Shown: positions 7,668-32,209 of the stretch, piece after piece
How positions within the stretch are numbered: position 1 is the first letter of the stretch
Layout of the letters: each line of letters starts with the position of its first letter
Source: a virus
IMG/VR virus record: IMGVR_UViG_3300009509_000063
Coordinates: 1 to 34,910 of that record
DNA length: 34,910 nt
Reading direction: 5' to 3' (one strand)
Notes under the pieces: model-generated
Database searches by the model: none
Told to the model about the DNA's origin: nothing
The model's input: only the letters and a program-made list of their open reading frames with translations
Position numbers and translations under genes: made by a program

Positions 7668-8375
7668 TTAGGATTTTACTACGGACATGAGGAAAAGCAT
7701 CGTCTCAATATCCTTAACTGCCCGTTGAAGGTCATCCAGACATCCGTCATTCTGAATAGTTACGTCAAAGAAGGTGTCATCCAACTCCTGCTGTTCTGTT
7801 TCAGAAAGGTGTTGACCAGCAGCTCCTTGTAGACCTTCTCCTCTTACTACCTTGATGACCTTACCACCTGCTCTTTTGATGGCTGCTATCTCATTCTTGA
7901 AGCGGACGTCTGAGATGACTACACCTTTAGGTGTTATTCCACGAAGGTCCATTTTTGGTTGTACAGAATACCATTCCTCTGGACGATAGAGAGCCCCACC
8001 TTTCAGAAGTTCCCTGGCTACTCGGATTGCATACTCTGCCCATACATCTGAGTAGCACCCTCTACCCCACTCTGTACCTAGAGTTTGAAGAGCATGACGA
8101 GGAGTTAGATATAAGGGCTCACGGTGACGAGCCATTTTCCCAAATGAATCTACTTGAAAAAGTTGCTCTTCGTGCGTACGGACGTATCTCTTATCTGGAG
8201 CATTCCTGGCGTCACTAGAACCCCACAGCTGCTCATCGGAGAAGTCAAACATCTCCTTGCAGAACCTCTTCATGGGGTCAGCGAAGGCTATCTTCACGAA
8301 GCCATGATTCTTAACGAGGATGTCAGCTACTGTGTCCTTCCCCGAACCAGCTAATCCACAAACACCTATTATCAC
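7668..8375 (-). CDS. Deoxynucleoside monophosphate kinase (T4 gp1-like)
   Basis: A 235-residue P-loop kinase. Residues 7-15, GLAGSGKDT, form the Walker A loop of nucleotide kinases. Next come FADPMKRFCKEMF (about 31-43), the conserved TPRHALQTLGTEWGR segment, and GVVISDVRFKNE (Walker B-type strand and acidic residue). This is the layout of the phage dNMP kinase family, which phosphorylates dNMPs to dNDPs with ATP in the cytosol for phage DNA synthesis. Length is usual for the family. The start (ATG 8375) overlaps a 67-residue gene as ATGA. With the MazG-like gene just upstream it forms a nucleotide-pool pair. Which bases it accepts cannot be read from sequence. Confidence 0.88.
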   Translation of the reverse strand: MIIGVCGLAGSGKDTVADILVKNHGFVKIAFADPMKRFCKEMFDFSDEQLWGSSDARNAPDKRYVRTHEEQLFQVDSFGKMARHREPLYLTPRHALQTLGTEWGRGCYSDVWAEYAIRVARELLKGGALYRPEEWYSVQPKMDLRGITPKGVVISDVRFKNEIAAIKRAGGKVIKVVRGEGLQGAAGQHLSETEQQELDDTFFDVTIQNDGCLDDLQRAVKDIETMLFLMSVVKS

Positions 8376-9003: not shown

Positions 9004-9259
9004 GTTTCCTCCTCATGATTTCCTTTGAAATGTCACGCACATAGTCACAGGTTCTCTTACCTCTGACTATAGTCCTACTAGTAAATACCTTCTTGATAAC
9101 ATGTCTTGTAGCCCCCTCCTCCCATCTCACCATGATGCCGAACCCTCCATCCACAGAATAGAAAGTTACAGCTGATGCACCAGTTGCTCTCTTCAGATGG
9201 TCCAACCATGTGCTAAGCTGCTTCTTCAGAGCGTGTAATTCTTCCGTTGGGTGTTTCAT
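8990..9259 (-). CDS. Hypothetical basic protein, 89 aa
   Basis: An 89-residue basic protein: an N-terminal helix (ELHALKKQLSTWLDHLKRAT), two strands (SAVTFYSVDGGFGIMVRWEE), then a lysine/arginine-rich helical end (RDISKEIMRRKRGTQ). It overlaps the MazG-like start by 14 bases. Its ATG uses the same CATG palindrome as the divergent plus-strand gene, so neither has room for a normal leader. No clear Shine-Dalgarno is seen. Function unknown. Confidence 0.65.
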   Translation of the reverse strand: MKHPTEELHALKKQLSTWLDHLKRATGASAVTFYSVDGGFGIMVRWEEGATRHVIKKVFTSRTIVRGKRTCDYVRDISKEIMRRKRGTQ

Positions 9260-9740
9260 GGCAGAGCTCTACAACAAACTAAGAAGGATGGGTCGTAACG
9301 AGTTTAGGAGGTATGTCCAAGACGAAGGTCATCTATGGGACAGAATTCTAGACCAGGCTCAGGCTATAGTTGATACTGAGAAAAAGAGACGAATGGCCGA
9401 GGAGCCTGCAGTAACTCTAGCCTTCTTCTGGCCAGCTGATAATGAGCTTATAGCAGCTGGGGAGTTTCTGGATGTCGTACCAGAAGTAGTACCAGACTAT
9501 GATGAGGAGAGAACCATTCAACTCCTCAAGGATAGAGTGGTGGAGCTAGAAGCTTACGCTTTGTTACTACTGATGCCATCCGGCAATGCAGTCAATATCA
9601 CTGTTGAATCACATCATGGTAGTAGGTGGTGGTCCCTAAGAAAGGAACGCCACGGTGATATAGATGTTGTTGTAGTAACCCCCAAAGATAACCAGAATTG
9701 TATAGGTATCCTCTGGAAACCAAAAAAGGCCCAGGCATAA
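9258..9740 (+). CDS. Hypothetical protein on opposite strand, 160 aa
   Basis: A 160-residue protein starting at ATG 9258 (MAELYNKLRRMGRNEFRRY). A longer frame from GTG 9210 adds a Cys/Phe-rich antisense-like segment and was not preferred. It is helical and basic at the N-terminus, followed by a long central helix (EERTIQLLKDRVVELEAYA), then alternating strands (NAVNITVESHHGSRWWSLRK, DIDVVVVTPKDNQNCIGIL). No Shine-Dalgarno is visible, so the message may be leaderless or transcribed through. Its last codons contain a terminator that acts on the opposite strand. Not recognised; the different strand suggests its own regulation. Confidence 0.68.
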   Translation: MAELYNKLRRMGRNEFRRYVQDEGHLWDRILDQAQAIVDTEKKRRMAEEPAVTLAFFWPADNELIAAGEFLDVVPEVVPDYDEERTIQLLKDRVVELEAYALLLLMPSGNAVNITVESHHGSRWWSLRKERHGDIDVVVVTPKDNQNCIGILWKPKKAQA

Positions 9741-9775: not shown

Positions 9776-10432
9776 CTATGTAGCAGCATAGTCACCATCA
9801 TCATCAGGGTCATCATACCCTGAGCTTGCTACTGGTGGACTGAAGCTGCTAACAGCAGTGGGTGTGCTCACCGCTTTGGTGGCGGGCTTGTTGTTTCCTC
9901 CATTCAAGAGTGGCGTGACACCTCTATCGTCAATCACCTTGACAATCTTGCTCATGATGTCCGCACAGTGCTCCATCCCACTCTTGACGTCTATGGAAGG
10001 GTCCACTTGCTTCACCAACTGCAGGGCGCCGATGGCATCGCTAATGGTTCCAGCGTACTTAGCAGCGTTTACTAACGCTTGCTCTTCCGAGATTACACTC
10101 CTCCCACGCTTTTTACCCTCTTTCCGCTGCGCATTGTCTGCAATACGCTTTGCAATGGGGCTATCCTTCTTTGGCTTCCGTCCTGGCTTTTTCTTCTCTG
10201 CTTTTGGTTTCGATGCTGCCTTTTTACCAGTCTTCTGCTTCTTTACTGGTGCAGGCTCATCCTCAGCACCAAAGTGCTTGTTGATGGCTGCATGACACTT
10301 TTTCTTATCCGGTTCAGACCACTTGGAACGACCAACAGCTCTGCGGGCACCAGAGATAGTGGGGTACCCGTCTTCACCAAGCTTGCTGATGAAACGGTCT
10401 GGGGTTAGCTTCTCGTAGGCTGATTGAGCCAT
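9776..10432 (-). CDS. Lysine-rich, nucleoid-type basic protein, 218 aa
   Basis: A 218-residue protein read from ATG 10432 with AAGAGGTG five bases away; GTG 10438 in the same frame lies over the ribosome site. It has three parts. Residues 1-55 are a small basic domain (FISKLGEDGYPTISGARRAV). Residues about 58-110 are a disordered Lys/Pro-rich stretch with AT-hook-like KKPGRKPKK and KKRGRS. A helical segment (about 115-170) and an acidic tail (DDPDDDGD) follow. The basic core suits DNA or RNA compaction or binding. It looks like a single-gene unit with a promoter-like site before it and a terminator behind. A histone-like role is inference; a virion-internal protein is an alternative. Confidence 0.7.
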   Translation of the reverse strand: MAQSAYEKLTPDRFISKLGEDGYPTISGARRAVGRSKWSEPDKKKCHAAINKHFGAEDEPAPVKKQKTGKKAASKPKAEKKKPGRKPKKDSPIAKRIADNAQRKEGKKRGRSVISEEQALVNAAKYAGTISDAIGALQLVKQVDPSIDVKSGMEHCADIMSKIVKVIDDRGVTPLLNGGNNKPATKAVSTPTAVSSFSPPVASSGYDDPDDDGDYAAT

Positions 10433-10445
10433 GTTCACCTCTTTT

Positions 10446-10505: not shown

Positions 10506-10751
10506 GAGAATATCTTCGTTAGATACATTTTTACAGATGGGGGCGTCCCCATCCAAGTTAACTATCGTGTCCTTCTCTAGGTCTACACAGATTCCTAGGA
10601 GTTGGATGCCTTCTGCCCTCTCGAGGGCTAGAGCAAAACGTTGCTGGCCGTTGAAGTAAACAGGCATGAGGCCAAATTCCCCCTCGGCTAAGTTAGCAGC
10701 CACCAAGATAGAGGTTTCTTCTTCTGATGGCTCTCTGAAGTCGTCACTCAT
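10497..10751 (-). CDS. Hypothetical acidic protein, 84 aa
   Basis: An 84-residue acidic protein with a compact beta-rich core (GLMPVYFNGQQRFALALERA, IQLLGICVDLEKDTIVNL). GGAGGA lies before ATG 10751, which overlaps the upstream stop (ATGA). It ends just before the promoter-like element of the lysine-rich gene, and may close the endolysin transcript. Not recognised. Confidence 0.68.
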   Translation of the reverse strand: MSDDFREPSEEETSILVAANLAEGEFGLMPVYFNGQQRFALALERAEGIQLLGICVDLEKDTIVNLDGDAPICKNVSNEDILLN

Positions 10752-11197
10752 ACCTGTCCTCCAAAGATAGCCTCACATACTTTCTGTTGAGTAAGGCGTA
10801 TCCAAGTGTAGTGCAACCACCCAAGAGGTTTACCAGCAGTTATATGGCTGAAATAGTCCAACATCCACTTCTTGACTAGAAACTTGGGGAGGTGCGTAGA
10901 TTCAAAAGGATACCATCTCTTCCATGGGAATCTACAGGCATGAGCAGAATGGAACCACACTTCCTTTCTGTCCCTACTCTCATCCAACTGAACAAGTGAG
11001 ACCCTGGCGTACCCCAGCACAATACCATCTAGTATGAACCAGATAAAGTCCCCCAAGGTAACTCTAAAACCTAGGTCTACGGGTACAAAAACCGGCTCTT
11101 CTGTATTCCACTTGTAGTAGTAGAACCAGCTCTTGGTGTCTCCACCAGCTTGTGGAGCCGGGTCATCCCCCTTCATTCTGTATATAACGTGTGACAT
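10748..11197 (-). CDS. Hypothetical aromatic-rich protein, 149 aa
   Basis: A 149-residue protein rich in Trp, Tyr and Phe. The strand pattern GFRVTLGDFIWFILDGIVLG followed by YARVSLVQLD recalls PUA/EVE/ASCH-type small barrels, in which a GD-I turn leads a hydrophobic strand, but this is a weak visual resemblance. The C-terminal half is helical (LVKKWMLDYFSHITAG). It starts at the endolysin stop (TAATG), so it is coupled to it. Association with lysis is only positional. Confidence 0.66.
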   Translation of the reverse strand: MSHVIYRMKGDDPAPQAGGDTKSWFYYYKWNTEEPVFVPVDLGFRVTLGDFIWFILDGIVLGYARVSLVQLDESRDRKEVWFHSAHACRFPWKRWYPFESTHLPKFLVKKWMLDYFSHITAGKPLGWLHYTWIRLTQQKVCEAIFGGQV

Positions 11198-12039
11198 TAG
11201 AAAAGCAGCTTGACTACCTCAAAGTGCATTCCATCTTTTCTGCTTGAGTAGTGACCACCCCACCAGAACCCTAGCTTGTTAGCTGTCTTCACGAGCTCCC
11301 TAACGCAACCCTTCTTACCAACTAAAGCAGGCTCATGCCCAAGATAGTTCCACTTCATGTTGATGTCAAAAGCGGTGCCGTAAGAGTGGTTGGAGAGTCC
11401 GTTGACATTCTTGGACTGTAAAACGGAACCGCTCTTAACCTTGACACCACGAATGAATCTTGCACAGTAGGAACCATGCCAAGTGAGAATAACTTCACCC
11501 GCTGGATTCACTAGTAGCCCTTTGTCCTGCCAAGCCTTGAAGAGCTTCTGTACTTGCTCAGCTACTCTCTTGTGGAAGGGGAAGGAGCTGTGCTTCCCCG
11601 TGCCCTTAATTCCCTTGAGTTGAGGGATGGGTACCATTACGATGTTCTCTTGGTACCAGTTGTCTAAAACTTGGATAGCTTCCGGGTTGTCCTCTGTTCC
11701 AACCGCTTTAAACCTGAAGGAACCAAAGAGGTCTGTTCTTCCAGTTCTCTCTAGATACATCAAGTCAGGGGGAGGCTCTGGCCATCCTGGACCATACTGG
11801 TCACCAGTCTTATCTTTGACTAGTGGTAATCCTAGGGAGCCAGCCTGGAGGTAGGTTTGTGTACCTACTACCCCGTCAGCCTTCAGATTATACTTACTCT
11901 GAAAGGCCTTGGTGGCTTCAAAGGTTCTCTTACCAAAGTCTCCATCTACGTAGAAGAGATAAAGGTCTCTACCACGTAAAAAGTTCTGCCAGTCTTTAAC
12001 TCTCTCTCCTTTGTCTCCGAGACGTAAAGTAGGTAGCAT
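11197..12039 (-). CDS. Endolysin: peptidoglycan-binding domain plus M15 peptidase
   Basis: A 280-residue lytic enzyme. Residues about 4-67 form a PG_binding_1 domain (LRLGDKGERVKDWQNFL, then DGDFGKRTFEATKAFQ and ADGVVGTQTY). After a linker, residues about 150-275 are an M15 (VanY/D-Ala-D-Ala carboxypeptidase-type) zinc peptidase: LSNHSYGTAFDIN at 215-227 with the ligands H218 and D225, and GMHFE near 270-274 with H272. Such enzymes cut peptidoglycan cross-links at lysis. No signal peptide is seen, so export needs a holin. AGGAG precedes ATG 12039. It heads a minus-strand group separated from the holin-like genes by a large gene and a plus-strand island. Confidence 0.9.
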   Translation of the reverse strand: MLPTLRLGDKGERVKDWQNFLRGRDLYLFYVDGDFGKRTFEATKAFQSKYNLKADGVVGTQTYLQAGSLGLPLVKDKTGDQYGPGWPEPPPDLMYLERTGRTDLFGSFRFKAVGTEDNPEAIQVLDNWYQENIVMVPIPQLKGIKGTGKHSSFPFHKRVAEQVQKLFKAWQDKGLLVNPAGEVILTWHGSYCARFIRGVKVKSGSVLQSKNVNGLSNHSYGTAFDINMKWNYLGHEPALVGKKGCVRELVKTANKLGFWWGGHYSSRKDGMHFEVVKLLF

Positions 12040-12124
12040 CTTCTTCTCCTGAGGCTAGTAATATCCTCAAGTACCTTATACCCTTAACGACAAATTTTAA
12101 ACACTGCAAGATATAAAAGTTTAG
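12040..12124. promoter_or_regulatory. AT-rich divergent intergenic region, putative promoters
   Basis: This 85-base, AT-rich gap separates the divergent endolysin gene and plus-strand island. Plus strand: TATAAA at 12112-12117 lies 7 bases before ATG 12125 without a ribosome site, as in a leaderless message. Minus strand: TATAAG (12080-12075) with a weak upstream box could drive the endolysin. The position argues for promoters; the individual boxes are weak. Confidence 0.4.
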
Positions 12125-12988
12125 ATGTACTACGAGGACGCAGATAGGCTCTTAGTTGGAAGATGTAGACATAACAGGAAGTTAGCCCATGAAACGTACC
12201 TGTGGAGAGTAGGTGATGAGAGGACACCCTACTTTCAGTTTGAGATAAGGTACCCAGGTAGAGGAGCTACTCCCATCGTTACCTTCTTTAAGGATGGGAG
12301 AATCAGACTCACACATGATGGGTTCTGCTCTAACACCTTCATGAGAAGAATATATGATTTTACCCCATTCAGACCATGGGTAGAACGAGGGTACTGCTAT
12401 GTCACCACACCAACTGGAGTTAGACCACTACCAGAAAGAATCACACTTACACCCACAGGGCATGTAGCAGAGTTGGGGGAGCTAAATAAAAGAGATGCAT
12501 CAGATGTAAGAAGAGGCGTACACAGATATACAGTGAAGTATGTGAATGCCCTTCTAGCAGGGAGAATTGCAGAAGCAGATAAGTGCGTCGACTGTAAAGC
12601 AATATTAAGAGGGGAGTGGATTTCTATACCGTATAAGGTAGCAGAGGCAAGAACACATCTACTAAATCATATAGAAGACGGATTCTTCCCATCAGATATC
12701 GCTCTACAATCAGTTAAAGAATCAGCAGTTGGAACTTCAATTCTTAGAGGGGAACCAATAGCACACGAAGTGGCAGGTACTCCCCTCACAGATTTAATAT
12801 TCTGTTGGAAGGAAAACCATACCCTTCTTAAGAAGCCAAGGTCCCGAGCAGAGGAGTGTAGAAGAACAGAGAGAATGCTATTCCTACAGAAGAACCCCAA
12901 AGCTCATCCTAGAAGATGGAGAGCTATTTACAAGGTGGATATTGAATCAACACTTCTAGGTCTACTGGGGTTCTTTCATAGGGGCTGA
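12125..12988 (+). CDS. Phage protein of unknown function, 287 aa
   Basis: A 287-residue protein, first gene of the plus-strand island. Residues 1-115 are beta-rich: ETYLWRVGDERTPYFQFEIR, PIVTFFKDGRIRLTHDGF, then YDFTPFRPWV and YCYVTTPTG. This reading resembles a common phage protein of unknown function in which a TFxxDGxIxL strand is followed by a Thr/Arg turn. The second half is helical, with CVDC at about 154-157. No catalytic site is evident. The start is ATG 12125 with no Shine-Dalgarno but a TATAAA just upstream, so the message may be leaderless. Its stop overlaps the next ATG (TGATG). The role is unknown. Confidence 0.7.
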   Translation: MYYEDADRLLVGRCRHNRKLAHETYLWRVGDERTPYFQFEIRYPGRGATPIVTFFKDGRIRLTHDGFCSNTFMRRIYDFTPFRPWVERGYCYVTTPTGVRPLPERITLTPTGHVAELGELNKRDASDVRRGVHRYTVKYVNALLAGRIAEADKCVDCKAILRGEWISIPYKVAEARTHLLNHIEDGFFPSDIALQSVKESAVGTSILRGEPIAHEVAGTPLTDLIFCWKENHTLLKKPRSRAEECRRTERMLFLQKNPKAHPRRWRAIYKVDIESTLLGLLGFFHRG

Positions 12989-13305
12989 TGAAGAAGAAAA
13001 AGATAACGTATCAAATACACATGTTCCCAGCCATCTGGGAGCTTTTCGACAAGTACGTTGAGGTGATAAACTGGAAGTTGAAGGAGAGAGGGCTACCAAA
13101 GAAATTGAAGGGAGAGATACTGGGAGCAGTTCTCTCAGAAGCCCTACTGAGTCATGAGCGAGAAATCCTTGAAGGTCACCGGGCAGCCCAACTTGGGCGT
13201 ATTGGAAGGAGTCTTGCCAAGAGTGGAGGACTTTACCCCGAAATTTCCAAGTCTCTGGGAATTGGTGATGGAAGAGGCGACGGGAGCTCCTCCACCAAAA
13301 AGTGA
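12988..13305 (+). CDS. Putative ribbon-helix-helix-like regulator, 105 aa
   Basis: A 105-residue basic protein. The N-terminus KKKKITYQIHMFPAIWELF reads as a short strand followed by a helix, then a turn (ERGLPKKLKG) and a second helix (EILGAVLSEALLSHEREI). This suits a ribbon-helix-helix-like DNA-binding domain, but the loop is longer than usual. The C-terminus (GIGDGRGDGSSSTKK) is disordered. The last 152 bases also encode the start of the next gene in another frame. It begins at the upstream stop (TGATG). Confidence 0.55.
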   Translation: MKKKKITYQIHMFPAIWELFDKYVEVINWKLKERGLPKKLKGEILGAVLSEALLSHEREILEGHRAAQLGRIGRSLAKSGGLYPEISKSLGIGDGRGDGSSSTKK

Positions 13306-13651
13306 GAAGGGTATCTTCGAGACCTACCTTGGAAGGCTCGACCTCCTTCATCAGGACATGCTGGACCACCCTGAGAAGTATGAGGGCTCACCAACAGTGG
13401 CCCTGGTAGAGAGCCTGGTTCAACGAGGATTCCACAACTTGCCGGACGTCTATGCCGCTGTCAACCCTGAGGAGAAGAGACTCCTGGACCAGGCTACCCT
13501 ATTATGGGCAGCGAAGGCCCCAGAGAAGCCTCCAGAGCCTGTTTCTACAACACCAACGTTGTACAACTCGTCTGTTGTACAACAGCCTTCAGAACCCGTT
13601 CCTACCCCTATGGAGCTTCCAGAGGGTGCAGAGCCCTACTGGTGGCTCTAG
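13154..13651 (+). CDS. Hypothetical protein, 165 aa, start uncertain
   Basis: A 165-residue frame from ATG 13154 that overlaps the preceding gene by 152 bases. An internal ATG at 13268 (residue 39) would reduce the overlap to 38 bases, but neither start has a strong ribosome site. The centre is helical (GRLDLLHQDMLDHPEKYEG, TVALVESLVQRGFHN, PDVYAAVNPEEKRLLDQATL). The C-terminus is Pro-rich and ends PYWWL. Its stop shares the CTAG palindrome with the stop of the convergent 769-residue gene. Not recognised. Confidence 0.58.
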   Translation: MSEKSLKVTGQPNLGVLEGVLPRVEDFTPKFPSLWELVMEEATGAPPPKSEKGIFETYLGRLDLLHQDMLDHPEKYEGSPTVALVESLVQRGFHNLPDVYAAVNPEEKRLLDQATLLWAAKAPEKPPEPVSTTPTLYNSSVVQQPSEPVPTPMELPEGAEPYWWL

Positions 13652-15957
13652 TACATCGGAGCTCCATAGGGGGAGAAGGCTACTGGTGGTTGAGGACCAG
13701 CATAATATCCCTGTTGAGAGGGCATCATGGCTGAGCTACCAACTTGTCCAGCTGCTTGTAAGCCGGACTGCACTACACCCATGGCTCCTCTAGTTAGCCC
13801 ATAAGCACCAAGACCCATTGCACCTACTCCACCAACTAGAAGAGTCTTCCAGTGCTTTCTGAAGAAGCCTGGGTCCTTCGTCTTAATTTCTTCTATATCC
13901 TTCTCACCCAGTGGAGTACCAAGCTCTAACTTCTTTCGGAGCTTTTCCCCTACTTCCTTATTAGGTGCTGGAAGAGATTTTCTAGCTGCAGCCGCTTGCT
14001 CTGGAGATGCCACTGTTCCACTTACTGGTGGAGCTTTAGCCGCACCACCTACTGCAGGAGCTCTAGCAGCTTGTTCTACGATGCCACCAGCTGGTAATCC
14101 AGATGGTACACCGGCTTGTGCTCTTCTTCTAATCTCGGACACTGGTGCGGGTTTACGTACTGGTGCTTTTACAGTAGCTCGTGCTGCTCCTGGTCTGGCT
14201 GGAGTAGCAGCAGAACCTTCGAAGGTCCCTAACCCTTGAAGGTATTTTGGAGGCTCAACAACACTAGGGGGTGGAGCTGTCTTCACACCAGGAGCTTTAG
14301 GAGCGGCTGATGGTGGTGCTATACGGGGTGGTAATCCTGCCCGTCCAGCTGCTTGTACTCTACCACCACGGTACATTTGCTTGGCGCGCTCTCTGGCTAC
14401 TATACCCAAGCCTTCTGCAACATCTTTAGCTGCTTGTACCTTACCCTTTTTCCCAGCAAGCTCACCAACGGCTCTTCTGAGGCCAGCCTCACCACCAATA
14501 TCACCTAGGAACTGAGCTCTGGCTGCTTCATCAGCTGATGGTACAGCTGCTCTTACATTGCCACCACGAAGCAATTCCCCAGCTCGCTCCTTAGCCCGTG
14601 TAACTACACCTGGAGCAGTTGGTCTTGGAACTACCTGAGAAGGCTGTGCAACAGAAGGAGTTGCAGCTGCTCCACCTACTGGAGGAGCTACTTGACCCCT
14701 TACAGAGGGTCTAGCAGGGGCCATAGCCTGAGTTCTGGCCGGCGACATAGGTTGAGTACTAGCTAGGTCAGGAGTACGTCTGGGCTCAATACGGGTTACT
14801 CCTCCGCCAGGGGGTGCTACTCTTCCAATTTGACGAGTAGGTGCACCTCCAGGTACAACAGTAGCCGCAGAAGTGTCTATTGGAACAGGAGGCTTTACCC
14901 CCCTAGGTAGAGGAAATACTTCTTTACCACTACCAGCCGCCATCCGACTAGAGGGTATTGGGGCCTCTGCTCGTGAAGAAGACCTCCACTTCTGTATAGA
15001 CCCACCTGTCATCCTCTTGAATTCAGACATTGGGTCTGTGCCATGCAATGCAGCAGACCTCTGTGCTAGGTCCCACATGCCTGCTTGGTCACTCGGAGTA
15101 AGGGCTCTACCTACTTCTCCCCTACCAGCTACAGATGAAGCCTCTGGTGGGGGGACAACCTGACCCCTTGGGGAGATAGGTTGCATAGGAGGAGCTTCTA
15201 CTCGTGGAGTTGGTCTACCCTCTGCACGTGTAAGGGTACTAACGCCACCCGATGATGGTGGAGCGGCAACCCCAGGGGACATTAAAGTCCCACCAGGAGC
15301 CCTACGTCGTGCTTGAGTGCCTGCCAAACTCTCAGGAGAGGGGGCAATGGCTTGTGTAGCCATTCTGGAAGAGGGAGGAGCACCAGCACGTGTAGCCTCC
15401 AACACCCCAGGTGGTAAAGAGGGCATTGCCTGGGTTTGACCAGGAAGGCTAGGAGGAGGAGATGGTAACTTAACAGAAGAAACCGGACCACCTCTTCTAC
15501 CAGAAACACCAAAAGGCATAGAGGGCGATGGCGGCTTTGGTCTAAGTGGAGGAGCTATTCGTCTTGGAGTTCCTCTCCTTACTTTTCTAGTTAGACCACC
15601 AAGTGCTTTTTCAGCTAACCCTGCAAGTCTTCCTCTAATAGTTAGAGCGCTTTTTTCTAGCCCCTCTGCCATATCCTGACCTACCTCTGAGGCTATAGAG
15701 GCTAGGCGTACCATACCATGCTCTGGACCCATACTCTGCTGCATCATCTGCATGGCTCTGAGCTGAGCAAAATTATCGTTCATGGTTCTGGCCTGGGACT
15801 TTAGAGCTGCTATACGATGAGCCTCCTGAGCTCCAGGATTCAAACCCATCATCTGAACACCCATACGTACTGCTATGGGGCTCATATCAGCCTGCTTCTC
15901 TAGGTAGATTTTTTCGTTACCATAGAGCTCAGTTAGAACTGGGTCTGGACAACTCAC
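13648..15957 (-). CDS. Large disordered Pro/Ala-rich protein with C-terminal membrane helix, 769 aa
   Basis: A 769-residue protein read from GTG 15957, overlapping the upstream stop. Residues 1-125 are helical (VQMMGLNPGAQEAHRIAALK; LEKQAD and LEKSAL). Residues 125-690 are low-complexity Pro/Ala/Arg/Val sequence with short islands, for example a Trp-containing helix near 293-325. Two similar helical units occur at 453-471 and 521-538 (AKERAGELLRGGNVRAA; ARERAKQMYRGGRVQAA). TQ motifs recur (GQTQAMPSL, ARTQAMAPA). Near the C-terminus KHWKTLLVGGVGAMGLGAYG is a hydrophobic, glycine-zipper helix (about 704-731). A structural, scaffold or injected protein is plausible. The function is unknown and no tape-measure pattern is seen. 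Confidence 0.68.
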   Translation of the reverse strand: MSCPDPVLTELYGNEKIYLEKQADMSPIAVRMGVQMMGLNPGAQEAHRIAALKSQARTMNDNFAQLRAMQMMQQSMGPEHGMVRLASIASEVGQDMAEGLEKSALTIRGRLAGLAEKALGGLTRKVRRGTPRRIAPPLRPKPPSPSMPFGVSGRRGGPVSSVKLPSPPPSLPGQTQAMPSLPPGVLEATRAGAPPSSRMATQAIAPSPESLAGTQARRRAPGGTLMSPGVAAPPSSGGVSTLTRAEGRPTPRVEAPPMQPISPRGQVVPPPEASSVAGRGEVGRALTPSDQAGMWDLAQRSAALHGTDPMSEFKRMTGGSIQKWRSSSRAEAPIPSSRMAAGSGKEVFPLPRGVKPPVPIDTSAATVVPGGAPTRQIGRVAPPGGGVTRIEPRRTPDLASTQPMSPARTQAMAPARPSVRGQVAPPVGGAAATPSVAQPSQVVPRPTAPGVVTRAKERAGELLRGGNVRAAVPSADEAARAQFLGDIGGEAGLRRAVGELAGKKGKVQAAKDVAEGLGIVARERAKQMYRGGRVQAAGRAGLPPRIAPPSAAPKAPGVKTAPPPSVVEPPKYLQGLGTFEGSAATPARPGAARATVKAPVRKPAPVSEIRRRAQAGVPSGLPAGGIVEQAARAPAVGGAAKAPPVSGTVASPEQAAAARKSLPAPNKEVGEKLRKKLELGTPLGEKDIEEIKTKDPGFFRKHWKTLLVGGVGAMGLGAYGLTRGAMGVVQSGLQAAGQVGSSAMMPSQQGYYAGPQPPVAFSPYGAPMY

Positions 15958-16490
15958 TTCTTCTCTTCCTTGTTTTCTACCTTGATGCCCTTAGGCTCAG
16001 GTAACTTTACAGGAATTTCTACTTTAACTCTAGTCTTTGCGGTAGGAGGGCTCTTATCAGCACCAGCTTTATGTTCAGACTGCGGGTGTGGATTTGGTGC
16101 CTCGATGACTATAACGGCATTATCCCCTGCATCTGAGACACCCGCATCACTAGGAAGAAGAGTAATAGAAGGCTTGTCCTTTTCTTTACTAGTATCCTTC
16201 TTAACCTCATCTACTGTATTTTGAGTATCCTTAGCTATAGTAGATACCTGAGTAAGAATTGCAGTAGCTGCTTCTATATCTTTCTTCTGCTCAACCAAGT
16301 CCATAGTTAATCTTAGTTGCCAGTATCCACTCATCAAGATAAGAAGCACGATGATAATCATCGCTATAAGTAGACACTTGAAGAAACTGGTAAACTTAGA
16401 GAGAAGGGTGAGGATTTCATTGAGGGGCTCAATGAGGTCATCTAATACGGCAACTATTTTCTTACTGCCGTTCTTCTTGCTGTCCATCAT
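15954..16490 (-). CDS. Single-pass membrane protein with coiled coil (possible spanin-like), 178 aa
   Basis: A 178-residue protein with one strong membrane helix (FFKCLLIAMIIIVLLILMSG, 37-56), a predicted coiled coil (LVEQKKDIEAATAILTQ and on, 65-105), and a Pro/Lys-rich tail. With the N-terminus inside and a periplasmic coiled tail, this matches the layout of phage inner-membrane spanins. Evidence is topological only, and no outer-membrane lipoprotein partner is seen. GGAGGG precedes ATG 16490. It lies directly behind two other small membrane/coiled-coil genes and before the 769-residue gene. A host-interaction or tail-linked protein is an alternative. Confidence 0.55.
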   Translation of the reverse strand: MMDSKKNGSKKIVAVLDDLIEPLNEILTLLSKFTSFFKCLLIAMIIIVLLILMSGYWQLRLTMDLVEQKKDIEAATAILTQVSTIAKDTQNTVDEVKKDTSKEKDKPSITLLPSDAGVSDAGDNAVIVIEAPNPHPQSEHKAGADKSPPTAKTRVKVEIPVKLPEPKGIKVENKEEKK

Positions 16491-17705: not shown

Positions 17706-18488
17706 TTAAATATTCACTTTCCACAGGCGAAAGCTGGAGCCTGCTTGCATTGCCCATGTCGCGTTGAAAGACATGTTTGTGATGTTTGATGTTGTCTCAT
17801 ACCAGCACCCACCACAGACCATAGCATTGGTTGTTGCTGTAGTAGTACTGCCACTCCCACAGATAGAAGCGTAGGACCGGAAAACTGTGGTGCTGGAAAC
17901 ACTATAACGAGGGTGAAAGATGACAACAATTGTTGTAGCGGAGTATAAACCAGAATCCCCATACCCCGTGCCTACAATTAACCTAGTAGTCTGAGTACCA
18001 CTCCCTTGGGTACCACCATAACTGCGCATGTATACCATGACCTGATTGGAGGTAAGTCCTAACGGTCTAATGGTATAGGTAACCCCAGCTCCCGAATATC
18101 CCTTAATGCGAGCTATGAGTACGTATAGGTCATCAGCAGCACCATTAAGACCTGTCATACTAACAGCTGATGATGCGCTAGTTAGGTCTGTGGAATATTT
18201 AAGCGTCCACAAACCACCTTCCTGTAGGTGTAACAACTCTCTAACAGCACTATCTACATAAACTTTGGGACGACCATTAGTGGTATTCATCCCAATGGAG
18301 TCTGGGTCTGTAGGAGTACCATCAGAGGTCCACTGGACCAGATTATTTTGCAGATAGAGAGTATTAGAACCAGCTTGTAGTTTATTAAGACGACCACAAA
18401 GTAAACAGCTCTTTGTAGTGTGCCACGGAGGCCACCAAAGGTGCTTCCCCTCTTTGCAAGGCTTGTGAACAAGGTCGAGAAGGCTCAT
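17706..18488 (-). CDS. Adhesin-like paralogue 1 with N-terminal Cys/His knuckle, 260 aa
   Basis: A 260-residue protein in a tandem family of three. The N-terminus has C11, H16, H23 and CLLC (28-31) around the shared core WPPWH, a probable single zinc knuckle. A beta-sandwich follows: a WTLKYSTDLTSAS strand, MTGLNG turn, DDLYVLIARIKGY, IRPLG, and the end TNMSFNATWAMQAGSSFRLW. The C-terminal ending is common in phage tail tips. It overlaps the preceding copy by 4 bases (ATGA). The knuckle may fold or dock the protein on a fibre or particle, and the sandwich may bind host surface. Function is inferred from layout and context. Confidence 0.72.
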   Translation of the reverse strand: MSLLDLVHKPCKEGKHLWWPPWHTTKSCLLCGRLNKLQAGSNTLYLQNNLVQWTSDGTPTDPDSIGMNTTNGRPKVYVDSAVRELLHLQEGGLWTLKYSTDLTSASSAVSMTGLNGAADDLYVLIARIKGYSGAGVTYTIRPLGLTSNQVMVYMRSYGGTQGSGTQTTRLIVGTGYGDSGLYSATTIVVIFHPRYSVSSTTVFRSYASICGSGSTTTATTNAMVCGGCWYETTSNITNMSFNATWAMQAGSSFRLWKVNI

Positions 18489-19285
18489 GTCCCATTCTCA
18501 ACTTTCCACAAGCGAAAGCTTGTACCAGCCTGCATTGCCCAGGTTGAGACAAATAGGAAACTAGTGATATTTGTAGATGTCTCCGCCCAAGCTCCACCAC
18601 TGATGATAGCGTAAGTGCCCGTAACATCACTAGGAGCTCCACCAGCTACTGATACATACGACCTATAGACTGTGTTACCTCCAATACTATAACTGGGGTG
18701 GAAGACCACCATGATAGTTTCAGTAACATTTTGACCAGCTACAGCAAAGCTGGCGCCAACAACCATGCCACCAGCCGCAGCAGAACCTACTGAACCATTA
18801 GCTGACACTAGATAAGTGCAGGTCTGGTTTGTAGCTATACTATTGGGTCGTATATAGTATGTTGTTGTTTGTCCAGGGTATCCTTTGATTCGGGCAATCA
18901 GTACGTATAGGTCATCAGTGTTTCCACTACAACCTGTAATATTCTGGGTAGTAGAAGCACTTGTAAGGTCTGTGGAGAAGACTTGTCTCCACAACCCATT
19001 CTCTTCTGTATGAGCTAAAGGACGGGACATCCAACTGGAATTATGCTCTATGTAGGCATGAGCATACCCAGTAGAAGTATCCATACCCAGCCGACCAGCG
19101 CTGGTTGCAGATGCGGTAGTACTCCACTTAAGTAGATTACTATCTATAGTAAGTGTCTTATCACCAACGGGTAGCCTATTATAACACCCACATAGAACAC
19201 ATCGCTTAGCAGTATGCCAAGGAGGCCAGAAAACGTGGCGCCCCTTGTCACAGTTGCTATGGATTATGCTAGATAGGCTTTTCAT
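18485..19285 (-). CDS. Adhesin-like paralogue 2 with N-terminal Cys/His knuckle, 266 aa
   Basis: The second of three tandem copies, 266 residues. The knuckle reads C12, H17, H24, C29, C32 and C34, around RHVFWPPWHTAKRCVLCG. The body keeps WRQVFSTDLTSAS, DDLYVLIARIKGYPG, YIRPNSIATNQTCTYL and the ending FVSTWAMQAGTSFRLWKV. It differs from the others mainly in residues 60-90 (a longer insert) and in the loop region 160-200. Such variation between stable ends is what is expected of paralogues with different binding surfaces. Coupled to both neighbours by 4-base overlaps. Confidence 0.72.
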   Translation of the reverse strand: MKSLSSIIHSNCDKGRHVFWPPWHTAKRCVLCGCYNRLPVGDKTLTIDSNLLKWSTTASATSAGRLGMDTSTGYAHAYIEHNSSWMSRPLAHTEENGLWRQVFSTDLTSASTTQNITGCSGNTDDLYVLIARIKGYPGQTTTYYIRPNSIATNQTCTYLVSANGSVGSAAAGGMVVGASFAVAGQNVTETIMVVFHPSYSIGGNTVYRSYVSVAGGAPSDVTGTYAIISGGAWAETSTNITSFLFVSTWAMQAGTSFRLWKVENGT

Positions 19286-20064
19286 CCGTTCTCTATCCTA
19301 TACATACGGAAGCTTGACCCTATCTGCATAGACCAGGTGCTATAAAAGGTGATGGAGGTCATGTTAGTGCTGGGGTCTGCCCATGCTCCTCCATACAAAG
19401 ATACGTAGGTTCCTGTCACTGATTGAGAGCTACCACCACAAAACGAGAAGTACGAACGGAATACTGTCGTTCCCCCCGTACTATAGCTGCTATGTAACAC
19501 GATGAAGAATGTGAGTGTTACATTCTCTCCTGCAACAGCTTGAGCTCTTCCTACTTCAAGAATAGTTGCAGTTCCTGACCCCCAAACATTGTTAGCATTC
19601 CTTACATAGGTGCACCGCTGATTGGCAACGAATCCATTTGGCCGGAGTGAGTATGTAGCAGCACCACCAGCATAGCCCTTCACTCGTGCTATAATTACGT
19701 ACAACTCATCGGAGTTACCGTTTAACCCCGACATGTTAACGGACATGGTAGCACTAGTTAAATCGGTGGAGTAGATAAGGGTCCAGATGCCACTCTCACC
19801 TAAGTATGCCAAGGGGTGTACACCTCCGTTGACATATACGCGGGGTCTCCCTAGAGACCTATCTAATCCTAGTTCACCTTCAACAGTGGGAGAGCTGCTA
19901 GTACTCCATGTAAGCAGTTGATTAGCAAGTGTTACTGATTGTGGACCAACATGAAGTTGGTCAAAACAACCACAAAGTAAACATCGCTTACTACGATGCC
20001 ATGGAGGCCAGAAGACGTGCTTGCCTTGGTGGCAGCCTTTATGAAGGACGCCTAGAAGACTCAC
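19282..20064 (-). CDS. Adhesin-like paralogue 3 with N-terminal Cys/His knuckle, 260 aa
   Basis: The third copy, 260 residues, and the first transcribed after the 784-residue fibre. Knuckle: C11, H16, H23, C28, C31 (GKHVFWPPWHRSKRCLLCG). It is closest in its first residues and MSGLNG turn to copy 1 (both begin MSLL). The body has WTLIYSTDLTSAT, DELYVIIARVKGY, LRPNGFVANQRCTY and the end FYSTWSMQIGSSFRMYRI. The start is GTG 20064 behind GGGGGTG, two bases from the fibre stop, so it is translated with the fibre. Three intact copies argue for use rather than decay. Confidence 0.72.
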   Translation of the reverse strand: MSLLGVLHKGCHQGKHVFWPPWHRSKRCLLCGCFDQLHVGPQSVTLANQLLTWSTSSSPTVEGELGLDRSLGRPRVYVNGGVHPLAYLGESGIWTLIYSTDLTSATMSVNMSGLNGNSDELYVIIARVKGYAGGAATYSLRPNGFVANQRCTYVRNANNVWGSGTATILEVGRAQAVAGENVTLTFFIVLHSSYSTGGTTVFRSYFSFCGGSSQSVTGTYVSLYGGAWADPSTNMTSITFYSTWSMQIGSSFRMYRIENG

Positions 20065-26544: not shown

Positions 26545-26937
26545 TCAGCCTAGTGCCCAAACTCTGACATTTCCGTCTTGTGTATGAACGATATCCAGTT
26601 GGGTAATTCCCGCTGTTGGGTTTGGAGAGCCCAGTAAGAAGAAACCTGCGGCAGATACCTCCAACTGACCTGAAACACCTCCTGCATTTATCTGTACGTT
26701 GATGGGAGCAGCAGCTCCAGCATCGTACTTAAGCAGGATGAGCTTACATCCAGCAGCTGGAATGTTGGCTAAGGTTTGTAGATTAAGAGAAACCGTTCCC
26801 GCACCAGTGAGAGGTATCTCTCCTACAAGCTTGGCGTTGAAAGACCCAGAAAGAGGAAAACTCTTATCTGAATCAACTGCACCTGCATCCGGTGGAAAGG
26901 TGAGGGTACCCGCAACAGAGAAGGGAGTGGCCGGCAT
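26545..26937 (-). CDS. Small structural-type protein, 130 aa
   Basis: A 130-residue protein of repeated beta-strands (FSVAGTLTFPPDAG, SFPLSGSFNAKLVGEIPL, TVSLNLQTL, KLILLKYDAG, INVQINAGGVSGQLEVSA, LDIVHTQDGNVRVWA). It resembles a beta-sandwich decoration or tail-associated protein. GAGG lies 8 bases before ATG 26937. It sits between the probable tube gene and the 160-residue structural protein. Function is inferred from composition and place. Confidence 0.62.
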   Translation of the reverse strand: MPATPFSVAGTLTFPPDAGAVDSDKSFPLSGSFNAKLVGEIPLTGAGTVSLNLQTLANIPAAGCKLILLKYDAGAAAPINVQINAGGVSGQLEVSAAGFFLLGSPNPTAGITQLDIVHTQDGNVRVWALG

Positions 26938-31261: not shown

Positions 31262-32209
31262 CTAGGTTGACTCCGATTCTTCCACAGAGGGGGGTGCTAT
31301 GGGAATAGTTTGACCTCGTATGGAAGCAGGGCGTAACCCAGGTGTATGCGGTTTAGAGACTTTGATAATTACGTTTCTCGCCGGGTTAAGTGGGTGGGGA
31401 ACTAAATGAGGTTTATTCTGAGGTAAACCTGCGGGGTTAGGAGTACTACTTGCATCAGAAGCATATGGCGCAAAGGCTTCTGGTCGATAGGTGGTTATGT
31501 TAAAGGGCAGCTCATGCCCGTAGGCGCCAGCATTTGTATCTGCAACAGGCCCCATTTCTCCATAAGTTCTTAGTCCCCCAATTTGGAGTGAGGCTTCTAT
31601 ACTCTGTATTATCTGTTTCCCTAGAGGAGTTACTTGACCCGTGCGCGGGAAGTGGAATGGAGAGGTTACAGTAGTACAATAGGTCTCATCCTCACCTGCT
31701 CCAGAAACTAGAGAGCCAGCTGGAGATGGAGCTCCTATGGCTAACTGCTGACCAATTTGGAAGAAACCCTGCTTTAGTAAATGACCTCTCAGCAACCAGA
31801 GATGGTCAGAAATTATGAAGGCCAGTTGGTCACATTCTATATCTACCCGGGAGCAACAATTGATGCTCATTGTACCGGGGATAAGAACGGTCTTTTTCTT
31901 AGCACCCGTTCTAAAGTTGTACCCCATTAAGTCATCCAGACAAAATGAGTAGAACTGAATAGGCCCACGAGTTAGAGAGATGGCAGGACGCTGCCCCACT
32001 ACATCTAGGTTGATGGGGTTCTCATCCGTGATGACAATCTCTGTGTCTTCTAGAGCTGGCTCCCAGTGATAACTGCCTCTTGGAGCTGCAGCGAATAGCC
32101 CTTGCAGAAAACGAGCATAGAGTACCCTCACCTGTCGTAGAGGTGTGTTCTTGAAGCTGCTCCCGCCAAACTCAACTGCGGGACTTGTTGTCTCTACCCC
32201 TGAGGGCAC
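31262..32209 (-). CDS. Probable tail-terminator or neck protein, 315 aa
   Basis: A 315-residue protein just before the sheath. Core: YHWEPALEDTEIVITDENPI, GQRPAISLTRGPIQFYSF, VLIPGTMSINCCSRVDIECD, a helix (LAFIISDHLWLLRGHLLKQG), GSLVSGAGEDETYCTTVTSP and LGKQIIQSIEASL. I recall this block from large phages as a virion protein near the sheath gene. Terminator/neck (connecting head and tail) is an inference from position and likeness. The C-terminal 100 residues are Pro/Ala-rich and disordered. The start is GTG 32209 with AGGGAG at spacing 7, overlapping the upstream gene by 38 bases. Confidence 0.66.
   Translation of the reverse strand: MPSGVETTSPAVEFGGSSFKNTPLRQVRVLYARFLQGLFAAAPRGSYHWEPALEDTEIVITDENPINLDVVGQRPAISLTRGPIQFYSFCLDDLMGYNFRTGAKKKTVLIPGTMSINCCSRVDIECDQLAFIISDHLWLLRGHLLKQGFFQIGQQLAIGAPSPAGSLVSGAGEDETYCTTVTSPFHFPRTGQVTPLGKQIIQSIEASLQIGGLRTYGEMGPVADTNAGAYGHELPFNITTYRPEAFAPYASDASSTPNPAGLPQNKPHLVPHPLNPARNVIIKVSKPHTPGLRPASIRGQTIPIAPPSVEESEST

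Follow-up and report, generated by a model that had tools for sequence, protein, structure and literature searches.

Ribbon-helix-helix (RHH) regulators such as CopG, Arc and the N-terminal domains of TraM and MazE6 (PF01402, RHH_1) are small, basic proteins with a strand-helix-helix build. The late-transcription proteins gp33 and gp55 of phage T4 carry a short hydrophobic terminal motif after a divergent linker (PMC2988020). Overprinted viral genes give two proteins from one stretch of DNA read in different frames. The locus set beside these systems here is a block of three genes, P1, P2 and P3, on a virus record of 34.9 kb that IMG/VR lists as linear; "the window" denotes the whole stretch analysed, at its full length of 34,910 nucleotides. 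Its relevant features are the following.

9258-9740, plus strand: P0, a gene conserved in relatives upstream of the P1-P3 block
11197-12039, minus strand: endolysin (M15), 280 aa, with PF13539 and PF01471 above cut-off
12040-12124: AT-rich gap separating P1 from the divergent endolysin, the presumed promoter region
12125-12988, plus strand: P1, 287 aa, with a beta-rich N-terminal domain, a zinc-type motif and a helical C-terminus; the gene of a variable slot
12988-13305, plus strand: P2, 105 aa, a probable RHH DNA-binding protein whose C-terminal tail overlaps P3
13154-13651, plus strand: P3, 165 aa, pI 4.6, with a conserved core and a C-terminal YWWL; +1 frame relative to P2
13154-13305, plus strand: P2/P3 overlap, 152 bases, out of frame, probably dual-coding
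13542-13551: a third, degenerate copy of GTTGTACAAC beside the exact palindrome pair
within 13558-13583: palindrome pair GTTGTACAAC, two exact copies 16 bases apart, a stem-loop or possible operator
13602-13675: inverted repeat with 16-base arms, 94% complementary, over the convergent stops of P3 and the 769-aa gene
13648-15957, minus strand: 769-aa gene, bordering the P3 side of the block

A sequence-only reading had described three plus-strand genes lying between the endolysin and the 769-residue gene, and the three open reading frames were recovered at exactly those positions. The AT-rich divergent gap that it placed on one side has 29/85 G+C by hand count (34%, against 48.3% window-wide), and the shared stop on the far side is the tail-to-tail overlap of P3 and the 769-aa gene in CTAG. 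P1 and P2 have one common base at their junction (TGATG); the 152-base overlap of P2 and P3 was missing from that reading. AT and GC skew change sign across the block, as expected from plus-strand coding, and P1-P3 show no foreign codon usage, their log-likelihoods (-4.02 to -4.05) lying within the span of the window genes (-3.86 to -4.10). Elsewhere the minus strand of the window encodes a GroES-like co-chaperonin (1442-1771, PHROG_3188), a deoxynucleoside monophosphate kinase (7668-8375, PHROG_139) and, at 17706-20064, three adjacent genes of 260, 266 and 260 aa resembling tandem paralogues.

The 6 kb around P1-P3 gave zero nucleotide matches in 50,697 deposited phage records, among which this phage group has no close isolate. 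Distant tail-gene relatives were found in Salmonella phage Arash, Tunturiibacter phage Tunturi_5, Bacillus phage G and Vibrio phages D69, D148 and D181. Scans of viral contigs with single proteins (P1, the 301-aa tail protein and the endolysin) yielded no matches, a scan with the P1 alignment returned already-known records only, and a genome contig scan returned one bacterial MAG contig. Relatives were obtained with a profile of the 301-aa tail protein, from which the best 80 of 353 confirmed IMG/VR loci were taken (37-66% identity, on contigs of up to 210 kb). P1 as a single query matched 6 of 50 tail-gene records at 28-37% identity, and a P3 homologue lay near those matches, with strand and gene order unchanged. 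A first P3 profile matched 30/50 and 4/34 records, and a broader one (E up to 0.01) matched 11/43 further records in a round that left out 7 records without a match to the first. P3 was thereby found in 45 of the 80 IMG/VR records and in 0/4 named phages; the weak matches are G025, G026, G034 and G073 (E 1.3e-6 to 1.3e-5), the last lying in a 480-aa frame and being doubtful. Since some records are only short fragments, a missing P3 means little there. By reading of the strands, P3 is opposite to the 301-aa tail gene in 45/45 records. Several long plus-strand ORFs in GC-rich relatives run antisense to known genes (one of them, of 1230 aa, lies across the sheath gene) and were ignored.

Synteny was followed by tblastn of the window proteins on the loci of 25 relatives. 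The shared skeleton begins with a plus-strand gene like 9258-9740 and minus-strand genes like 9776-10438 and 10748-11197, and is then interrupted by a slot; P2-P3 follow on the plus strand, succeeded by a minus-strand counterpart of the 769-aa gene, genes like those at 26545 and 26947, the sheath gene and the gene at 31262. Not every member was detected at every locus, and L154 gave zero tblastn matches. P2-P3 is a conserved gene pair with a fixed place and strand in this phage group. At the most distant loci (L154, L155, L186, L187, L189 and L190), P3 is preceded by a non-P2-like protein of about 200 aa; several of these share W-rich and RWARTLGMW-like segments, and a Pfam search with those of L154 and L155 found no match.

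P2 sequences have little in common outside a core, and P2 is basic in 22/22 loci. In the structure model of P2, residues 1-80 are confidently predicted (pLDDT blocks 84-98), and helices span 14-33, 41-55 and 57-78. Foldseek returned nothing significant with this model. A second structure comparison brought 14 of 36 chains to Z >= 2 and none to Z 5, and the weak matches, all below Z 5, include entries for TraM, MazE6, CopG, Arc and VapBC, which we take to be RHH proteins. No RHH family exceeded the Pfam cut-off for the window P2, none was matched by any of 20 aligned P2 members, and a P2 profile found no relative by sequence among solved structures (best E 0.58). The short P2 of L048, a positional homologue, matched RHH_1 with 25.6 bits (cut-off 20.5), the single such match in ten proteins searched; profiles of short-type and long-type P2 aligned weakly, with a probability of 24%. 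The confident model, the weak fold matches and the L048 homologue point to P2 as a probable RHH protein, and the suggestion of the sequence-only reading that the second gene is RHH-like is upheld in these terms.

The conserved core of P3 extends approximately from LF..LL to ER.LLD.A and is followed by a variable linker, the protein being of low complexity outside the core. By our own count, WW stands at or near the C-terminus in 17 of 25 aligned sequences. P3 is acidic in 19/22 loci and basic or neutral in the other three (L132, L133 and L137). The outgroup P3 proteins (L048, L050, L051, L059, L060 and L083) begin with a CxxC(x3-4)HxxxxC segment, presumably zinc-knuckle-like, have no WW tail and accompany a short P2. 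P3 gave no meaningful E-value with any Pfam or PHROG family, and three P3 queries had no matches in the collection of 50,697 phage records. The WW tail was considered as a clamp-binding motif, and the one clamp test, confined to the bacterial-type family, was negative: PF00712 was found in 0/15 long relatives, all 15 of which carry an A-family DNA polymerase. Sigma70_r2 was detected in just 3 of these 15, so sigma factors of their own do not look general.

An immediately preceding P2 ORF, always in the +1 frame, accompanies 28 of the 38 distinct P3 sequences, overlapping P3 by at least 95 bases in 22 of them and by 8 bases in 6; by row reading, the remaining 10 P3 sequences are truncated, doubtful or behind another gene. 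The overlap ranges from 8 to 533 bases on the tail-protein tree, in which the 8-base rows (the outgroup) stand on one side and the long overlaps fall in a 23-row clade with a support of 96, its fork being drawn open.

To interrogate coding in this overlap, the length over which the P2 frame remains open in P3 was compared with that obtained after shuffling P3 synonymously. It exceeds the expected length at 8/18 loci with p<=0.05 and at 6/18 with p<=0.01, against 0/18 loci (p<=0.05) when the third frame of these P3 genes is read, and 13/88 (p<=0.05) and 5/88 (p<=0.01) for the same frame in the 301-aa gene as a control. Third-position changes between L092 and L094 are also scarcer inside the overlap (16/59) than outside it (68/112); the scarcity is smaller for L092/L095 and L094/L095, and there is none for L132/L133. 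It is unlikely, though a serious alternative, that the overlap is a chance run-on of the P2 frame and its tail functionless. Such a run-on would suit the 13/88 control readings, by which the shuffle test is mildly anticonservative, the ordinary open length in the four closest P1-bearing relatives (L092, L094, L095 and L097, p 0.29-0.59), the borderline value of the window itself (p 0.036 and 0.042 in two runs) and the low complexity of the P2 tails; it does not readily accommodate the excess of open loci over the third frame or the rarity of third-position changes in L092/L094. A combined p of 4e-10 from an all-row shuffle test was set aside and is not relied on, because the test is anticonservative, the related sequences are not independent and the rows behind it include truncated or doubtful P3, with L010 and L017 entered with the longest, not likely, P3 start. 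The excess of frame openness over the controls, together with the fewer third-position changes in L092/L094, makes dual coding likely in several lineages, with the window a borderline case, so that the overlap is probably dual-coding and, where long, probably a case of overprinting.

At the upstream end of the block, TATAAA occupies 12112-12117, seven bases from its end to the P1 ATG, and P1 has no Shine-Dalgarno match, both as the sequence-only reading had noted. Its description of P1 as leaderless-like can be kept only as a possibility, since 16 of the 48 window genes, P1, P2 and P3 included, likewise lack a match of more than 3 bases, and a sigma-70 scan of the window, which found sites below the chance number, placed none in the gap. 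At the opposite end, positions 13540-13690 form a fold far stronger than that of shuffled sequences (z -6.5). The inverted repeat at 13602-13675 may be a bidirectional terminator and the GTTGTACAAC palindromes may form an operator; in the window both palindromes sit inside coding sequence near the end of P3. With the AT-rich gap upstream and these strong stem-loops at the convergent end, the view of the block as a counter-strand unit of its own is supported. A stem-loop at the end of P3 was rejected as a group feature, being strong in the window and reaching z <= -2.5 in just 4/24 loci (the window, L094, L136 and L139); P3 overlaps the stop codon of its convergent neighbour in the same few bases in 7/24 loci. 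A hairpin inside P2 that at first seemed conserved in five loci was dropped after an 18-locus test, in which it was among the strongest 2.5% of blocks in 5/18 loci (L095, L097, L137, L139 and L150) and not in the window, where it ranked at 15%.

A basic RHH-like protein, an acidic partner and a stem-loop-bounded counter-strand unit among late and lysis genes lead us to read P1-P2-P3 as a self-contained counter-strand regulatory operon of a large contractile-tailed phage, with a probability of about 0.42; it is from this anatomy that we infer regulation. P2 would act as an RHH dimer on DNA, at its own promoter and perhaps at neighbouring late promoters. Translated from the same message, P3 would be the usually acidic partner carrying the effector function, its core docking on P2 or on another protein and its C-terminal WW tail touching a further partner. 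The pair would time transcription hereabouts, including that of the endolysin and other late genes running in the opposite direction, and the long overlap would keep the output of P2 and P3 in ratio, with P1 as an accessory gene. The proposed operon is uncharacterised, and not categorically new.

It is fairly unlikely that P3, and with it P1, is an assembly, virion or lysis-control protein and that P2 merely regulates its own expression. The block does stand amid late genes, with the endolysin on one side and, past the 769-aa gene, a weak match to an Rz-like spanin (15954-16490, minus strand, PHROG_214, E 0.0083), which suggests lysis genes on both flanks of the counter-strand unit, and in L136 an M15 endolysin occupies the slot on the P2 strand, just upstream of P2. 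This reading would nevertheless have to explain why P3 always runs against the late genes, an arrangement that speaks for separate timing, and why no structural family is matched.

The slot in front of P2 bears on a further alternative, a cargo (moron) cassette that would target the host early or counter its defence. P1 fills the slot in the window and in 9/34 fetched neighbourhoods (L092-L097, L132, L133 and L137, with L092/L093 and L095/L096 as near-identical pairs), and its presence, labelled by hand on the 27 labelled rows of the tail-protein tree, requires at least 3 changes. Other contents are an endolysin on the opposite strand in L143, an HNH gene besides P1 in L132, a papain-like protease in L138 and, in L134, an NT5C nucleotidase fused to P2, the same gene being found in L012. 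This L012 gene (19679-20605, minus strand) encodes an NT5C-type nucleotidase with a C-terminal P2-like domain and overlaps P3. P1 is therefore one occupant of a variable slot in front of the P2-P3 pair. Its patchiness, the differing contents of the slot and the location of weakly matching Caulobacter phage genes (E 0.01-0.03) in terminal repeats would all suit cargo, but with P2-P3 at one place group-wide and ordinary composition and codon usage we consider a cargo cassette improbable. The island inserted into the late region that the sequence-only reading had envisaged is accordingly not supported as such, because position and strand of P2-P3 are conserved; what survives is the varying slot before P2. 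The comparison with relatives that it had proposed found P3 in the same strand relation wherever detected, and P1 alone patchy; the conservation of P2-P3 supplies one half of what that reading had named as its refutation.

P1 itself carries a zinc-type motif, CxxC...HxxxH (C154, C157, H178 and H182), whose four residues are invariant in five close P1 sequences and absent from L132, L133 and L137. PHROG_554 was matched by 4 of 5 P1 homologues at E 3.3e-6 to 0.0054 (L133, the best at E 3.3e-6, L092, L095 and L097; not L094) and was not reached by the window P1 in the profile search. The structure model of P1, of moderate confidence (pLDDT 72.7), matches unannotated viral proteins, the best being K4K7L5 of Caulobacter phage CcrSwift. 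No relative was found among solved structures (best E 0.57), so no function can be read from the fold; none of 985 chains counted at Z >= 5 over the whole model, the top listed chain having Z 5.0 over 103 residues at 4.8 A. A literature search found no paper naming the PHROGs matched by P1 homologues.

Toxin-antitoxin pairs typically overlap by a few bases, and a pairing of an RHH antitoxin P2 with a toxin P3 is very improbable: an RHH-like first gene does overlap the second here, but the overlap is long and out of frame, atypical of such pairs, and P3 is highly variable, of low complexity beyond its core and without a meaningful match in Pfam or PHROG. The preferred regulatory operon can be carried one step further, to an undescribed transcription switch born of overprinting, in which the lengthening tail of the RHH protein came to be read over the gene of its acidic partner and the WW tail of P3 bridges P2 to RNA polymerase, governing late and lysis transcription. 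We hold this extension to be quite improbable; if true, it would represent the control of late and lysis transcription in a large group of uncultured phages with genomes of about 170-200 kb. In any case P2-P3 is a small conserved candidate for control in a phage group without a close isolate, its series of overlaps on one tree offers a stepwise view of how overlapping genes grow, and the slot before P2 is a place to seek accessory genes.

Compared with the known systems, P2 resembles the RHH regulators in being small, basic and probably of strand-helix-helix order, and differs from them in a longer first helix, an extra third helix and a long tail over the next gene. P3 has the same type of ending as T4 gp33 and gp55 (PMC2988020), and is usually acidic; there is no sequence match to them and the likeness is an analogy only. 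The likeness of P1 to PHROG_554 lies in the N-terminal domain of the P1 homologues, to which the window P1 adds the zinc-type motif and the helical C-terminus. As with overprinted viral genes, P2 and P3 would be two proteins from one stretch in different frames, the long overlap belonging to a derived clade and the outgroup having 8 bases; what distinguishes the pair is its setting in a large dsDNA phage group, where the overlap joins a probable DNA-binding protein to the gene of its presumed partner.
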